This document shows positions 4,359 through 22,634 of a stretch of 22,634 nt of DNA, one piece after another. The DNA lies in IMG/VR virus record IMGVR_UViG_3300030098_000277, positions 1 through 22,634 of that record; one strand, given 5' to 3'. The notes below the pieces were generated by a model. It was not told the DNA's origin, made no database searches, and was given only the letters and a program-made list of their open reading frames with translations. Position 1 is the first letter of the stretch; each line of letters opens with the position of its first letter. The translations under genes were made by a program, and so were the position numbers. The stretch is from a virus.

Positions 4359-4509
4359 TCTTATTCTCCTTTTTCTTAAAAATCATATCCCAATTTTTAT
4401 CAAACTCTTCACGAGTAACATGTCCGGGTTTACCTTGGTTTCTCCTCATAGATAATCTACCTTTTTGTTTGTGTAAAGCTTTGAATGTTATGTTTCCTAA
4501 ATGAGGCAT
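4333..4509 (-). CDS. Small basic protein, 58 aa, coupled to iscU
   Basis: ATG at 4509 shares its A with the iscU stop (TAATG), and the frame runs 58 codons to TAA at 4333. The product begins MPHLGNITFKALHKQKGRLS, has RRNQGKPGHVTREEFDKNWD in the middle and ends with a Lys-rich tail (KKKENKNAKKKDSD). I do not recognise it. The one-base overlap with iscU and the overlap with the next basic gene make it a real operon member. It is basic and soluble, like its neighbours. Confidence 0.75.
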   Translation of the reverse strand: MPHLGNITFKALHKQKGRLSMRRNQGKPGHVTREEFDKNWDMIFKKKENKNAKKKDSD

Positions 4510-4928
4510 TATGTATAATAATTATGTTTTCTATGTGCAACTTTTTGTTCCCAATCTTTTATTGCTTGTCGTATACTATCTTCTGCTAGTACACTACAAT
4601 GCAATTTAATTGCTGGTAGTTCTAAAGCTTCTGCTATATCTTTATCTTTAATAAGTTTAGCTTCTTCTATAGTCTTACCTTTTAACATATCTACAAACAT
4701 AGTAGAGGATGCGATTGCACTTCCACATCCATATGTTTTAAACTTGACATCTTCTATAACATCATTGTTTAATTTAATTTGTAGTTTCATCACATCACCA
4801 CATGCAGGTGCACCCACCATACCTGTAGCAACATTTGGGTCTTTAGGGTCAAATCTTCCAACAGAATGTTTTGCTGGATTGTTTAAAACACTTTCAAACC
4901 TATCAACTACTTTTTGTGAATATGCCAT
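4509..4928 (-). CDS. iscU: IscU-type iron-sulfur cluster scaffold
   Basis: The 139-aa protein is near full length and clearly IscU-like: TGMVGAPACGDVMKLQIK, FKTYGCGSAIASS and LHCSVLAEDSIRQAI are all present. The cluster ligands are intact (Cys43, Asp45, Cys68, His110, Cys111, matching E. coli C37, D39, C63, H105, C106). The chaperone-recognition motif LPPVK is present as LPAIK (104-108). In hosts, IscU accepts sulfur from IscS and passes assembled clusters to apoproteins, with help from HscA/HscB. No iscS, hscA, hscB or fdx is nearby, so it would have to work with host partners. A short insertion near residues 13-20 (SVLNNPAK) distinguishes it from the E. coli protein. It is embedded in the late packaging operon with TAATG-type junctions on both sides, so it is not a random insertion. 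Confidence 0.95.
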   Translation of the reverse strand: MAYSQKVVDRFESVLNNPAKHSVGRFDPKDPNVATGMVGAPACGDVMKLQIKLNNDVIEDVKFKTYGCGSAIASSTMFVDMLKGKTIEEAKLIKDKDIAEALELPAIKLHCSVLAEDSIRQAIKDWEQKVAHRKHNYYT

Positions 4929-6525: not shown

Positions 6526-7116
6526 ATGAAAAATAATATCAAATATAGAGAGGAGTGGCTAAACAAAGTTGCTCAAGAACTGGACGAAAGGGCGTTTAAA
6601 CCTAACGGGTATAAATTGCCACCAGTTAAAATTAGTTGCTCATGGGCGTTAGGCAATAGAGCAAAGAATAAAACAACACTCGGTCAATGCTTTCCTACAA
6701 GTTGGAGTGATGCAAATATCAATGAGATTGTAATAGTTCCAACTGTTGCTGATAGCTTTGAGATTGCTGATACACTTGCTCACGAGTTAGCTCATGCAGT
6801 TGATGATTGTAAATCTGGACACGGAAAAGGGTTCAGAAAAATATGCTTAGCTGTTGGGCTTGATGGTGAATCTCAAATGCGATATGCAAAGGCTGGTGAT
6901 ATGTTAGCTGATAAAATAAAAGCTATCATTAAAAAAGTTGGAGAATACCCTCACGATAAAATGAATATATCAGATAGGAACAAACAGACAACCAGAAATA
7001 TTAAGGTTGAATGTTCCGAATGTGGATTTGGGTGGAGAGCATCAAGAACTATGGTGGCTAGGATGACTAACTCAACTTGCAACTGTTGTGGGAGTGATAC
7101 TTTAGAACTCAGCTAG
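6526..7116 (+). CDS. SprT-like zinc metalloprotease domain protein
   Basis: This 196-aa protein has the zincin motif HELAH (His86, Glu87, His90), preceded by IADTLA and followed by a third ligand candidate, His99 (GHGKGF). A C-terminal zinc ribbon has Cys163-x2-Cys166 and Cys185-x2-Cys188. This HExxH plus zinc-ribbon order is that of SprT/Spartan-related proteins, which in cells cleave DNA-protein crosslinks; phage members are common but little studied. It could clear proteins from phage DNA or host nucleoid. That is inference from the family. A good ribosome site (AAGGAG) precedes ATG 6526. It is isolated from the following genes by a strong terminator, so it may be a single-gene immediate-early transcript. 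Confidence 0.88.
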   Translation: MKNNIKYREEWLNKVAQELDERAFKPNGYKLPPVKISCSWALGNRAKNKTTLGQCFPTSWSDANINEIVIVPTVADSFEIADTLAHELAHAVDDCKSGHGKGFRKICLAVGLDGESQMRYAKAGDMLADKIKAIIKKVGEYPHDKMNISDRNKQTTRNIKVECSECGFGWRASRTMVARMTNSTCNCCGSDTLELS

Positions 7117-7661: not shown

Positions 7662-8015
7662 ATGATATATAAATATAATAATAGTGATGATGTAATTGAT
7701 AGTAGAGACATATTAGATTACATTGAGAAACATGAGGATGATGAAGACTTTAAGGAGGAAGTAGAAGCATTGCAAAAGGTAGTGAATCAATACTGTGATA
7801 ACTATAAAGAAGGTTTGAAGGACTTAGAGTTTGGAGTAACTTTTATCAAAGATGATTACTTTGAAGATTACATGTGGGATTACTTCTTGGAATTTGCTAA
7901 CATAGATGAGGCTTTAGAGTGCTATATAGATATAGAGGCTTTTGCTAGAGACCAACAATATGGATATGATTGGGTTGATTTTGATGGAGAACAATATTGG
8001 TATCTACAACATTAA
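7662..8015 (+). CDS. Very acidic protein, ArdA-like antirestriction candidate
   Basis: This 117-aa protein has about 34 Asp/Glu residues, nearly 30 percent. It opens with MIYKYNNSDDVIDSRDILDY. Its C-terminal half has DDYFEDYMWDYFLEFANIDE and then DIEAFARDQQYGYDWVDFDG, ending QYWYLQH. The DSRDI...F-x-YFEDY...I-x-x-x-AxARD...YxxVDFDGxxYWY layout resembles the short phage proteins often labelled ArdA-like antirestriction. ArdA proteins mimic B-form DNA and block type I restriction enzymes. The extreme acidity and early position fit, but the assignment rests on pattern recall. The next promoter begins directly after the stop codon. Confidence 0.6.
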   Translation: MIYKYNNSDDVIDSRDILDYIEKHEDDEDFKEEVEALQKVVNQYCDNYKEGLKDLEFGVTFIKDDYFEDYMWDYFLEFANIDEALECYIDIEAFARDQQYGYDWVDFDGEQYWYLQH

Positions 8016-18167: not shown

Positions 18168-18386
18168 ATGATAAAAGAAAAATTATATGATGCTTTGTAT
18201 GATAGATATAAAGCAAAACAATCAGAAGCTTTATGTAATATACAAGTATATTTTAGACAAGGGGTTGGAGTATCTGACCATCCTAACACAGTAAAAACTG
18301 TAGCTAAATTAATTGAAGATTATGCAGATGCAACTGAACATTTAAAAATATTAAAGGAGAATAGATATGAGTTTGTTGGGCAATAG
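18168..18386 (+). CDS. Hypothetical protein between nrdA and nrdB, 72 aa
   Basis: I choose ATG 18168, one base after the nrdA stop, with GAGGGA as ribosome site; an in-frame GTG at 18156 lies inside nrdA. The product begins MIKEKLYDALYDRYKAKQSE and continues ALCNIQVYFRQGVGVSDHPN, ending in a helical segment (EDYADATEHLKILKENRYEF). A coiled-coil-like small protein that I do not recognise as a family. It overlaps nrdB by 20 nt, so it may assist RNR assembly, but that is only context. Confidence 0.75.
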   Translation: MIKEKLYDALYDRYKAKQSEALCNIQVYFRQGVGVSDHPNTVKTVAKLIEDYADATEHLKILKENRYEFVGQ

Positions 18387-19338
18387 AGATTATTATAAAC
18401 CATTTGAATATCCATGGATGTTTGATTATTATGTATTACAAAATCAAATGCATTGGATGCCGGAGTCTGTGCCTTTACATACAGATGTAAAAGACTGGCA
18501 AGAACTTACAGACAAAGAAAAAAATTTACTTACACAAATATTTAGATTATTTACCCAATCAGATGTAGATGTAGCTAGTGGGTACATTGATAAATATATG
18601 CGTACATTTACAAAACCAGAAGCAAGAATGATGATGTCATCTTTTGCTAACATGGAATCAATACATCAACATGCGTACAGTCTACTACTAGATACTGTAG
18701 GTATGCCTGATATAGAGTACAAAGCTTTTGCTGACTATGAAGAGATGTCAGATAAACATGATTATGTTTCTAACTTTAAACCTACTAAGTCTGATAAAAG
18801 AACTATAGCTAAAACTCTAGCAGTTTATTCTGCTTTTACTGAAGGCTTACAACTTTTTAGTAGTTTTGCAATTTTATTAAACTTTCCTAGATTTGGTAAG
18901 ATGAAAGGCATGGGTCAAATAGTAACCTATAGTATTAGAGATGAATCTATGCATGTAGAAGCTATGACTAAATTATTTAGAGAGTTTATCCAAGAAAACA
19001 TAGAGATATGGACTGATGATTTTAAAAAAGAACTATATGAAATATGTAGACAAATGGTTACACTTGAAGATAAGTTTCTTGATTTAGTATTTGAAATGGG
19101 AGACTTACAAGGACTAACTAAAAAAGATATGTACGCTTACAATAGATACATAGCTGATAGAAGATTACTTCAGCTTGGTCTTAAAACTAATTATAATCAA
19201 AAAGAAAATCCTCTTGGTTGGATTGATGAAGTTATGGGAGTAGAACATCAAAACTTTTTTGAGGGTAGAGCAACTACATATATGAAAGCTGGACTTAGAG
19301 GAAGACAAGATAATATTACATTTGCAGGATTTGAATAA
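18367..19338 (+). CDS. nrdB: Class I ribonucleotide reductase, small (radical) subunit
   Basis: This 323-aa ferritin-fold protein stores the tyrosyl radical used by NrdA. The metal ligands are all visible: Asp66, Glu97 and His100 (ESIH), Glu159 (TEGLQLF), Glu193 and His196 (ESMH). Tyr104 sits seven residues after Glu97, where E. coli has its radical Tyr122. So it is a Tyr-radical di-metal (class Ia-like) enzyme rather than a Tyr-less class Ic type. AAAGGAG precedes ATG 18367. The stop overlaps the following ATG (TAATG). Confidence 0.96.
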   Translation: MSLLGNRDYYKPFEYPWMFDYYVLQNQMHWMPESVPLHTDVKDWQELTDKEKNLLTQIFRLFTQSDVDVASGYIDKYMRTFTKPEARMMMSSFANMESIHQHAYSLLLDTVGMPDIEYKAFADYEEMSDKHDYVSNFKPTKSDKRTIAKTLAVYSAFTEGLQLFSSFAILLNFPRFGKMKGMGQIVTYSIRDESMHVEAMTKLFREFIQENIEIWTDDFKKELYEICRQMVTLEDKFLDLVFEMGDLQGLTKKDMYAYNRYIADRRLLQLGLKTNYNQKENPLGWIDEVMGVEHQNFFEGRATTYMKAGLRGRQDNITFAGFE

Positions 19339-19562
19339 TGAAAAGAGAAGAAGCTACTTTAATAGGTTATAAACTTTTATATAACAGGTCAGGTAAATTA
19401 ATTACTGAAAGAACATCTACAGATATAAAAAAATTAAAACCTTATTTTACAAAACAAGAATATGCTACACTACAAACTGTAATTAGAGAAGGAACAATAA
19501 AATTAGATAACATTCATAATTACATAGAAGCTAATTTAAATGCAAGGATAATGACAGATTAA
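19338..19562 (+). CDS. Hypothetical protein between nrdB and cyclase, 74 aa
   Basis: The product begins MKREEATLIGYKLLYNRSGK and continues LITERTSTDIKKLKPYFTKQ, ending IHNYIEANLNARIMTD. It is basic, soluble and probably alpha/beta. No family is recognised. It is joined by TAATG overlaps to nrdB upstream and to the cyclase downstream, which ties the cyclase into the nrd transcript and makes it unlikely to be a recent isolated insertion. Confidence 0.75.
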   Translation: MKREEATLIGYKLLYNRSGKLITERTSTDIKKLKPYFTKQEYATLQTVIREGTIKLDNIHNYIEANLNARIMTD

Positions 19563-21310
19563 TGAAATGGGCTAGTTTACTATTAGGATTATTAACATTA
19601 CCTTTAATATTTAATCTTACACCTTTAGAGGTTATGAGGTTAAAAACCTTTGATGCTTTTGTACAAACACCAGAACCATCTGGTAACTTTGTAATCTTAA
19701 ATATAACTGAAGAAGATGTACAAAAACGAGGTGGTTATCCTTTTCCTAGGCAAGACCTTGCAGAAATACATAGACAACTACTTAATGAAGGTGCATTAGG
19801 GGTTGGTTGGGTTATATTATTTCCACAACCAGATAGGTTTGATGGAGATAAAATATTTGGACAAATGTTAAGTTATGCTCCTAGTGTATTAGCTATGCCA
19901 GAGTTTGATAATGGAGAGTACCCTAAAACTCATGGTACTGTTATACTTGGACCAAATGTAGAATTACCAAAAGCTAAAGGATTTTTACAAAACATACCAG
20001 AGCTTCAAGAAGTATCAGCTCAAGGTGCTGTATCTGCACCAGTAGATGTAGATAATTTAGTAAGAAGATTACCATTATTACAACAAACACCTGATGGTTG
20101 GGTTGCTGCTTTTGGCACAGAAGTTTTAAAAACATTAGTTGGCTCTAATACATATCAAATAAAAACAAATGAGAATGGTATTGAACAAATAAGAGTTAGA
20201 GGACTAGAGCCAATATCAACAGATAGTCTTGGTCGTAAGTGGATAAGTTGGGTAGATACTTCACAAACTACACTATCTGAAATGAATGTTGCAGGTAAGT
20301 TTGTATTCGTAGGTGTTACTGCAGAGGGGGTAATGCCTACTTTAGCCACACCAAATGGGCTATTAGAGCCTCACAAGATACAGGCTGCCCTTGCAGAAAG
20401 TATTTTGATTAACTCTCCGTTCATACCAGACTATAGATTATTTGTGGAGCTACTAATATTATGCATTTCAGGATTACTTGTCGCATTTGTAATAAATCGT
20501 TTTGGTATTACCATGGGATTACTATCAGCAGGAACATTGATTATTTCGATAGCTGGATTAGGTTACTATTTTATATTACGAGGATTTTTAATTGATGTAA
20601 CTTGGAGTATGACAAGTATGACACTTTTAGCTACTCAACAATTTTATTTAAACTTTAGAACTCAATATAAATTAAGACAACAAATAAAGAAACAGTTTGA
20701 ACATTACCTTGACCCAAGACAAGTAAAACAATTACAAGATAATCCGGAGTCTTTAAAACTTGGTGGAGAAAGAAAGGAATGTACAATTCTTTTTACTGAT
20801 GTTCGTGGCTTTACTTCTCTTTCAGAAAAATTACCACCAGAACAAATTACAGATTTAATGAATAAGACATTAACTATACAAGCTAACGCAGTTAAAAAAT
20901 ATGGAGGAATGGTAGACAAATATATAGGCGATGCAATGATGGCTATATTTAATGCTCCTATTAGCGTAGATATGCATGAAGATAGAGCTATACTTGCAGC
21001 TATAGAAATAAAAAGAAAAATGAAAGAAGCTGACTTAGGTATTGACATTGGCATAGGAATTAATTCAGGTGTAGTTATGTTAGGCAACTGTGGTAGTAAT
21101 GATAGATTTGATTATACTGCTATAGGAGATGCTGTTAATCTTGCTGCTAGATTAGAAAGTTCTACTAAAGAAGTTGGAGAAGATATTGTAATAGGTTATA
21201 ATACTAAAAAGAATAGTGATATGAAATTAAAATTATTAAAACCTATATATGTAAAAGGTAAAGAAAAACCTATAACAATTTATACAATAGACTTGACAAA
21301 TGATGTTTAA
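19562..21310 (+). CDS. Membrane-bound CHASE2 class III adenylyl cyclase
   Basis: The 582-aa protein starts with a membrane helix (residues ~3-19). An extracytoplasmic CHASE2 sensor domain follows (~20-290; note the VILFPQPDRFDGDKIFGQML segment), then three membrane helices (~293-364) and a cytoplasmic cyclase domain (~400-575). The catalytic set looks complete: metal-binding Asp413 (FTDVRGFT) and Asp457 (YIGDAMMAIF), purine-contacting Lys453 and Thr519 (DYTAIGDAVN) as in cyanobacterial CyaC, and transition-state Asn526 and Arg530 (NLAARLE). It should therefore make cAMP rather than cGMP. CHASE2 domains sense unknown periplasmic signals. It is coupled to the nrd operon by a TAATG overlap. I do not know of a standard phage function for such a protein. 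Host-derived origin is likely, but codon use looks like its neighbours. Confidence 0.93.
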   Translation: MKWASLLLGLLTLPLIFNLTPLEVMRLKTFDAFVQTPEPSGNFVILNITEEDVQKRGGYPFPRQDLAEIHRQLLNEGALGVGWVILFPQPDRFDGDKIFGQMLSYAPSVLAMPEFDNGEYPKTHGTVILGPNVELPKAKGFLQNIPELQEVSAQGAVSAPVDVDNLVRRLPLLQQTPDGWVAAFGTEVLKTLVGSNTYQIKTNENGIEQIRVRGLEPISTDSLGRKWISWVDTSQTTLSEMNVAGKFVFVGVTAEGVMPTLATPNGLLEPHKIQAALAESILINSPFIPDYRLFVELLILCISGLLVAFVINRFGITMGLLSAGTLIISIAGLGYYFILRGFLIDVTWSMTSMTLLATQQFYLNFRTQYKLRQQIKKQFEHYLDPRQVKQLQDNPESLKLGGERKECTILFTDVRGFTSLSEKLPPEQITDLMNKTLTIQANAVKKYGGMVDKYIGDAMMAIFNAPISVDMHEDRAILAAIEIKRKMKEADLGIDIGIGINSGVVMLGNCGSNDRFDYTAIGDAVNLAARLESSTKEVGEDIVIGYNTKKNSDMKLKLLKPIYVKGKEKPITIYTIDLTNDV

Positions 21311-21379: not shown

Positions 21380-21793
21380 ATGACAAATATAAAAGCATTT
21401 GGGCAGTTCAGCCCGTTCTCTGTTGGTTTTGATGAAATGTTTAATACATTGCAAAGAGCATCGACACCAGCATCAAACTATCCACCTTATAATATTATTA
21501 AAAAAGGTGAAGCATACTTTATTGAAATGGCAGTAGCAGGACATAAACAGTCTGATATTGAAATTGAAATAGAAGATAATACTTTAAGAGTCTCTGCAAC
21601 TTATGGAGATAGAGATGATGATATAGAATTTGTTCACAAAGGAATTTCTGAACGAGGATTTTATAAATCATTTGCTCTTGCAGAGTATGTTGAAGTTAAA
21701 AAAGCTAAGATGTCTGATGGTATTCTAGTAATTGAACTAGAAAAAAACATACCAGAAGAGCAAAAGCCTAAAAAAATTAAAATTTCTAGGTAA
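21380..21793 (+). CDS. hsp20: Small heat-shock protein, Hsp20 family
   Basis: The 137-aa protein has an N-terminal arm (MTNIKAFGQFSPFSVGFDEM) and an alpha-crystallin domain starting at YPPYNIIKKGEAYFIEMAVA. That domain includes DIEIEIEDNTLRVSATYGDR, the F-x-x-KGISERGFYKSFAL segment and the closing DGILVIELEKNIPEEQKPKK. The C-terminal KKIKISR gives an I-x-I anchoring motif. It is of the IbpA/class A bacterial type. Such ATP-independent chaperones hold unfolding proteins and occur in several marine phage groups, where a role in capsid or tail folding is suspected. It has its own promoter and a thermometer-like leader, and is followed by a structured intergenic region. Confidence 0.95.
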   Translation: MTNIKAFGQFSPFSVGFDEMFNTLQRASTPASNYPPYNIIKKGEAYFIEMAVAGHKQSDIEIEIEDNTLRVSATYGDRDDDIEFVHKGISERGFYKSFALAEYVEVKKAKMSDGILVIELEKNIPEEQKPKKIKISR

Positions 21794-21914: not shown

Positions 21915-22301
21915 TTAAAAATGACTATAATTATTAATAACTGCAAATGTTAGACCTACATTCATAGCAGTTATATAATTTTTACTACCATTTCTTGCCA
22001 TAAAAGTACCAAGCACAGCTTTGTGTAATATTAATTGTTCTAACTCTGGTCTATCAGGTAAAAGAGGATTAGCTTCTTTACAGGAAAGACATCTTTTCAT
22101 ACCTTCATAAGTTGTATAAACATCTAAAACATTAAAAGTCCAATAAGTTATTAACTGTGCTTTTGTAGGAGGTTCATTGTAGTCTCCTAAATTTAATAAT
22201 TTAGTTTCTGGTGGTATATATGCAGCAGGTTGTTCAGGTAATGTTAAATCTAGTTCAGCCTGTAAACTTATTCCAAATAATAATAGACATAAATATTTCA
22301 T
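21915..22301 (-). CDS. Secreted or membrane-anchored hypothetical protein, 128 aa
   Basis: The first 17 residues (MKYLCLLLFGISLQAEL, cleaved perhaps after LQA) form a short signal peptide. The mature part includes PPTKAQLITYWTFNVLDVYT, followed by TYEGMKRCLSCKEANPLLPD, with a Cys-x2-Cys pair. A C-terminal moderately hydrophobic helix follows (YITAMNVGLTFAVINNYSHF). The layout of a helix, EANPLL and a second helix is one I have seen in small phage membrane proteins of unknown role. AAGGAA precedes ATG 22301. It converges with hsp20 and belongs to a second minus-strand block that continues off the right edge, probably late genes. Confidence 0.75.
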   Translation of the reverse strand: MKYLCLLLFGISLQAELDLTLPEQPAAYIPPETKLLNLGDYNEPPTKAQLITYWTFNVLDVYTTYEGMKRCLSCKEANPLLPDRPELEQLILHKAVLGTFMARNGSKNYITAMNVGLTFAVINNYSHF

Positions 22302-22302
22302 T

Positions 22303-22634
22303 TTAATTTCCTTGTTTAATTGTTATGGTAGAAGAACCACCACCATTTACTATAATTTGTGTACTCTTTCCATTTTGTATAAGTATAACAGTATAAGAAC
22401 CAGTTTTGTCTAAATCTAATCTTACTGTATCTTCTAATGATTTTAAGAAAGTTATTATATTATCTGTAGCAAAAGTATTAACTTGAGTATTAGAATCAAA
22501 TCCCATACTTGTTCCTTTTAAATCTAAATTAGTCTTTAACAAAGTTTCTGTTTGGTCTAACTCATTTACATCTTGTATTATGTCTAACAAGTCTTCAAGA
22601 AAGTTTACATCTAAATAATTTATATCTAATTCAG
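22303..22634 (-). CDS. Hypothetical protein, N-terminus beyond window
   Basis: The frame is open from the right edge (22634), reading ELDINYLDVNFLEDLLDIIQ and on to TAA at 22303. So the true start lies outside the window, and an internal TTG at 22590 is not needed. The visible 110 residues are acidic and Leu/Asp-rich, with a repetitive feel (LDINYLDV, LEDLLDII, DQTETLLK), then a beta-rich end (GSYTVILIQNGKSTQIIVNG) followed by GGSSTITIKQGN. The Gly/Ser/Thr-rich beta C-terminus would suit a virion surface or tail-associated protein, but no family is recognised. Its stop codon lies one base before the next gene's start. Confidence 0.65.
   Translation of the reverse strand, partial: ELDINYLDVNFLEDLLDIIQDVNELDQTETLLKTNLDLKGTSMGFDSNTQVNTFATDNIITFLKSLEDTVRLDLDKTGSYTVILIQNGKSTQIIVNGGGSSTITIKQGN

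Follow-up and report, generated by a model that had tools for sequence, protein, structure and literature searches.

A predicted CHASE2-cyclase of marine phages as the likely signalling end of a curli/FecR cassette

Introduction

What is a receptor-type nucleotidyl cyclase doing in a phage genome, and who would read its signal? The window considered here, that is, the whole stretch of DNA that was analysed, is a 22,634-base linear IMG/VR record that carries such a gene. Phage curli modules, which encode among other things a secretion pore for amyloid fibres and to which the gene turns out to be linked, have been puzzling since 2020. Curli genes occur in pelagimyophages (PMC7029224), the CsgGF of phage Melnitz has been proposed as a possible lysis regulator (PMC9004378), and a T8SS module with FecR and an adenylate cyclase, closest to Alphaproteobacteria, is already published for HTVC023P-type podophages and pelagimyophages (PMC9599517). 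The main text of a survey of HMO-2011-type phages makes no mention of curli, FecR or a cyclase (PMC9038755). Our analysis adds a swap of catalytic domains, the sensor staying conserved, that leaves the catalytic residues intact. It also gives evidence that a cyclase and CRP are absent from the presumed SAR11 hosts, as are, for the most part, cyclic-nucleotide-binding (cNMP-binding) domains.

An intact-looking cyclase on a phage contig

The contig is genuine phage DNA from a relative of the HMO-2011-type phages. Its TerL is 63-66% identical, and its PolA 49% identical, to those of Pelagibacter phages HTVC115P, HTVC103P and HTVC104P, and its primase-helicase and NrdAB hit phage families; a SAR11 host is likely. 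An IscU/NifU-like Fe-S scaffold gene (4509-4928, minus strand) was considered as a host marker and dropped, because its match to the SAR11-labelled genome G001 is weak and the best bacterial matches (65% identity) come from different alphaproteobacterial genomes. The window also holds a gene for a SprT-like metalloprotease (6526-7116, plus strand) and a weak ArdA-like (antirestriction) match under the Pfam cut-off (7662-8015, plus strand; E=0.0008).

Table 1. Features of the window around the cyclase gene and at the window end
Feature	Position	Strand	Basis or remark
nrdB, ribonucleotide reductase small chain	18367..19338	+	Pfam
74-aa phage protein separating nrdB from the cyclase; homologue of HTVC115P gp34	19338..19562	+	ORF, comparison
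CHASE2-class III nucleotidyl cyclase, predicted, 582 aa	19562..21310	+	ORF, Pfam, residues, AlphaFold model
CHASE2 sensor domain, residues 16-305 (profile match)	19607..20476	+	Pfam
Predicted membrane helices and signalling helix behind CHASE2, residues 292-377	20435..20692	+	AlphaFold helices, hydrophobic stretches
Class III cyclase catalytic domain; D413, K453, D457, D517, N526, R530	20774..21277	+	Pfam, residue alignment
Small heat-shock protein, Hsp20/IbpA-like, moved along with the cyclase	21380..21793	+	Locus comparison
128-aa protein, signal-like N-terminus, family in 7 loci	21915..22301	-	Gene clustering
Periplasmic FecR-domain protein, C-terminal 109 aa, cut by the window end	22303..22632	-	Clusters with relatives' 368-aa FecR proteins

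The 582-aa product (Table 1) is predicted to be an active enzyme in which a CHASE2 sensor precedes an intact-looking class III cyclase domain. Pfam places CHASE2 above its curated cut-off (E=2.7e-27, 96.4 bits) and Guanylate_cyc over residues 405-572 (E=1.6e-19, 70.6 bits where 21.9 is the cut-off), and in the alignment all six canonical catalytic residues are kept: D413 and D457 for metals, K453 and D517 for the purine, and N526 and R530 for the transition state. The K453/D517 pair is of the adenine type, as in the adenylyl cyclase CyaB, whereas the guanylyl cyclase Cya2 has Glu in place of K453; the product is probably cAMP. The AlphaFold model (mean pLDDT 82.8) runs from an N-terminal helix through an alpha/beta sensor domain and a helical block to a cyclase fold, so that model and Pfam together give the layout of a CHASE2 receptor, with its N-terminal helix and a helical block ahead of the output domain. 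PDB matches to the modelled catalytic domain are CyaB and other class III cyclases, with Pseudomonas aeruginosa CyaB (3r5g, an entry of the catalytic domain alone) having the same fold and catalytic residues at 34-35% identity across that domain. Over its whole length the protein matches, in BFVD, an uncultured phage "predicted transmembrane sensor domain" protein. The earlier note had described a phage-encoded, receptor-type cyclase with a complete catalytic domain joined to CHASE2, and these results agree with it on each point.

A bacterial protein likened to it by architecture, CyaD1 of Sinorhizobium meliloti, is also a CHASE2-class III adenylyl cyclase. Without CHASE2, CyaD1 makes cAMP constitutively, so that CHASE2 restrains the cyclase (PMC5498481).

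The cyclase belongs to a curli/FecR cassette

Phage carriage of such enzymes had been taken to be rare. A scan of viral contigs instead confirmed relatives of the window cyclase at no fewer than 598 IMG/VR loci, which makes the gene common in marine phages and rules out both a chimeric contig and homologues confined to bacterial contigs. Full-length homologues within the same cassette are found in the phages HTVC008M (adenylate/guanylyl cyclase AGE60353, 35% identity) and Melnitz (QZI95054, 32% identity).

Neighbouring genes were clustered for the best 80 of the at least 598 loci, many of which are fragments, and together with Pfam this gave a constant order of a small one-helix protein, CsgF, CsgG, a curlin-like protein (a weak Pfam match), FecR and the cyclase. 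In all 77 loci that are informative on this point FecR adjoins the cyclase; four further loci, cut off or truncated, fall outside the count. In 70 of the 77, FecR lies directly upstream on the same strand, mostly with an intergenic gap of -4 to +1 bp, and in the other seven (the window, L002-L006 and L011) the two genes are convergent. HTVC008M and Melnitz have a second curlin gene inserted between FecR and the cyclase. The order CsgF-CsgG-curlin-FecR-cyclase is common to two podophage groups.

The earlier reading was made without this context, as the curli and FecR genes lie mostly past the window end and only the tail of FecR falls inside. By gene clustering, that fragment belongs to the FecR gene, the first of the cassette met from the cyclase side. 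CsgF, CsgG, curlin and FecR are adjacent in L003 and L011, relatives arranged like the window, and the CsgG and CsgF genes of the window phage would lie past its end, as in L003. In L008 Pfam gives a FecR match (E=5.7e-11); an AlphaFold model of FecR is of low confidence.

The published module (PMC9599517) agrees in gene families and in their order, and likewise ends in an adenylate cyclase. It differs from our loci in several respects. The cassette here is in HMO-2011-type phages, some relatives have a myophage-type catalytic domain, and the window's clade has the cyclase inverted into the nrdAB operon, such that cyclase and FecR, co-oriented in 70 loci, converge in the window and six relatives. 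Furthermore, the published module has a histidine kinase upstream of CsgF, whereas in most of our loci this place is taken by an 81-116-aa one-helix coiled-coil protein (e.g. L008:6681-7031), sometimes duplicated, with a kinase domain in none of 25 members. The published "histidine kinase" may be this coiled-coil protein.

A biofilm operon, BiofilmReg, likewise sets a periplasmic FecR protein next to a CHASE2 receptor, but its output is a histidine kinase with a response regulator (PMC5192318). FecR is no regular neighbour of bacterial CHASE2 cyclases in the small samples scanned (3 of 26 and 0 of 18), and in four alphaproteobacterial genomes no region surrounding a CsgF hit combined curli genes with FecR and a cyclase. 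A recent bacterial origin was considered and rejected: the nine genome-assembly matches are marine MAG contigs, labelled Pelagibacter, Flavobacteriaceae, Maricaulis and others (L085-L093), most of which carry the same phage curli cassette or phage genes and are probably misbinned phage contigs. Cyclase matches filed under "Acinetobacter phage MD-2021a" were also set aside, since the surrounding region (L084, CAKLQH020000011.1), with mfd, isc genes and cyaA, resembles a bacterial chromosome.

Position in the nrdAB operon is derived

The earlier note placed the cyclase in a nucleotide-metabolism operon, coupled by TAATG to nrdB and a small gene. The coupling is real, with TAATG overlaps at 19338 and 19562, and the gene does sit behind nrdB; the metabolic association, however, does not extend beyond the window's clade, and what is conserved beside the cyclase is FecR and the curli genes. 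L008 and L043 have curlin-FecR-cyclase-Hsp20, aimed at nrdB, and compared with these the window has the cyclase-Hsp20 block alone flipped. HTVC115P, from which the cassette is absent, has its Hsp20 aimed at nrdB too, and L006 and L011 have the inverted cyclase without Hsp20. A small inversion has thus put the cyclase, along with Hsp20 in the loci that have it, into the operon in the window's clade. The position, and with it the link to nucleotide metabolism, is therefore derived. An invertible switch was considered and rejected, there being no long inverted repeats on either side of the flipped segment.

Purifying selection and exchange of the catalytic domain

That HTVC115P, a cultured relative, has no cassette means that the cassette is dispensable, and would fit a neutral cargo or a catalytically dead scaffold acquired from an alphaproteobacterium. 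We consider this very improbable. The cyclase gene is under purifying selection, with dN/dS mostly 0.05-0.28 in sensor and catalytic domains alike, and several phage lineages carry it. The active site is also conserved: all six canonical residues are present in 77 of 83 alignment rows, and the metal residues and K453 are never substituted. D517E occurs in four loci, and the Melnitz cyclase has both D517S and N526S.

Five loci (L011, L022, L048, L054 and L055) point the same way. Their CHASE2/membrane part is 78-90% identical to that of the window, but their catalytic domain shares 44-45% identity with the window's and 61% with that of HTVC008M. In the CHASE2 tree the phage domains all fall into a single clade (support 0.91), whereas in the catalytic-domain tree these five group with HTVC008M (0.978-0.996), apart from the other podophage domains. 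At the DNA level, L011 is 88% identical to L006 over gene nucleotides 1-1266 and diverges afterwards, whereas it matches L048 along the whole gene. The catalytic domain has therefore been swapped while the sensor stayed conserved, and the active site came through the exchange intact. Since the exchanged domains retain all six residues, selection appears to act on the output of the cyclase and not on the sensor alone.

Presumed hosts mostly without known readers of cAMP

The earlier note proposed that the phage raises host cAMP. In this scenario host transcription or metabolism would be reprogrammed via host CRP, and an intact cyclase domain with an adenylyl-type K/D pair is what it would call for. 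The host side makes it improbable for SAR11. We scanned 198 genomes from the order to which the Pelagibacter MAG G001 belongs (completeness of at least 80% requested), an order inferred to be SAR11. A class III cyclase was found in one of the 198, on a phage contig within G001 itself; a cNMP-binding domain was found in 15 of 198, mostly as one protein type; and the CRP helix-turn-helix family was found in 0 of 98 genomes of the order. CyaD1, by comparison, is a bacterial enzyme that acts via the CRP-like regulator Clr, a family not found in SAR11. The types of cNMP-binding protein inspected were an acyltransferase fusion, an ABC transporter fusion and one 205-aa protein without the CRP helix-turn-helix. 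The main type is an acyltransferase fusion in the example scanned, and the conserved partners of the phage cyclase are curli and FecR genes, not metabolic ones. The fusion in L097 and L098, both from the SAR11 order, joins the cNMP-binding domain to an acyltransferase of the PlsC type, according to a domain scan of L097; it is present in a minority of SAR11 genomes and is a candidate cAMP target. A receptor encoded by the phages themselves was also sought and rejected, with no cNMP-binding domain in 44 phage records, many of them fragments. Separately, a 1.2-Mb SAR11-order genome with no class III cyclase match encodes a CHASE2 protein (G008:C1:324111-325130).

The same note raised interference with Pycsar, and one could more broadly imagine a decoy, mimic or substrate drain directed at cyclic-nucleotide immunity. 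PADLOC PycC profiles do hit the catalytic domain (best 4.2e-28), but the matches are confined to the cyclase domain that such enzymes have in common, a scan of a subset of the neighbour genes gave no recognisable Pyc effector, adenylyl-type residues do not suggest cCMP or cUMP, and the constant partner is FecR. The proposal is thus poorly supported, with no positive evidence in its favour, and we regard it as scarcely credible.

A candidate envelope sensor

Periplasmic sensing, also suggested in the earlier note, survives as a reading. We think it probable that the cyclase is the signalling end of the phage-borne curli/FecR cassette, acting as an envelope sensor. Gene-level coupling to FecR, CsgG, CsgF and the curlin-like protein argues for this, as do purifying selection, an active site that outlasted the domain exchange, and the lysozyme and holin-like genes nearby; CyaD1 and BiofilmReg are precedents. 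FecR in the periplasm would combine with CHASE2 into one sensor, which late in infection would respond to curli assembly or to conditions in the periplasm; its signal would then cross the membrane helices and the linker and reach a catalytic homodimer, which would turn ATP into cAMP. As SAR11 CRP is absent, cNMP-binding domains are mostly absent from SAR11 and none occurs in the phage records, the message would have to pass via an unrecognised receptor, be exported, or be used in a non-SAR11 host. Against the envelope sensor stand the Melnitz cyclase, without D517 and N526, the poor FecR model, the rarity of FecR beside the bacterial CHASE2 cyclases scanned, and the lack of an effector in the SAR11-order genomes and phage records scanned. 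In the window's clade, moreover, FecR and cyclase genes are convergent and so would not be co-transcribed.

A special case of the envelope sensor would have the cyclase and the curli pore cooperate with the lysis genes, either in timing release or in signalling an envelope breach. Lysozyme and holin-like genes adjoin the cassette in both podophage groups, and a lysis role has been proposed for the Melnitz CsgGF (PMC9004378), but nearness to lysis genes can mirror late-gene order only, and we hold this version to be unlikely. A wider claim, that ocean phages install a foreign circuit of curli pore, FecR and CHASE2-cyclase in hosts without cyclase or CRP, with cAMP as a phage-private or extracellular signal for an unrecognised receptor, is put forward tentatively, as a possibility on the doubtful side. 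If it is true, abundant ocean phages bring a complete envelope-signalling circuit that is foreign to the host. The constant FecR-cyclase pairing, the domain exchange and a SAR11 without known cAMP receptor make two questions testable in the ocean's most abundant bacteria: what the phage senses, and what receives its signal.

As a minor observation, the FecR of L002 (6218-7321, minus strand) has at about residues 229-272 an acidic stretch with eight leucines at a period of five (NILDA DFLDF DDLDV DYLAE DELEF TELDI NYLDV NFLED), which is suggestive of a pentapeptide-type coil.
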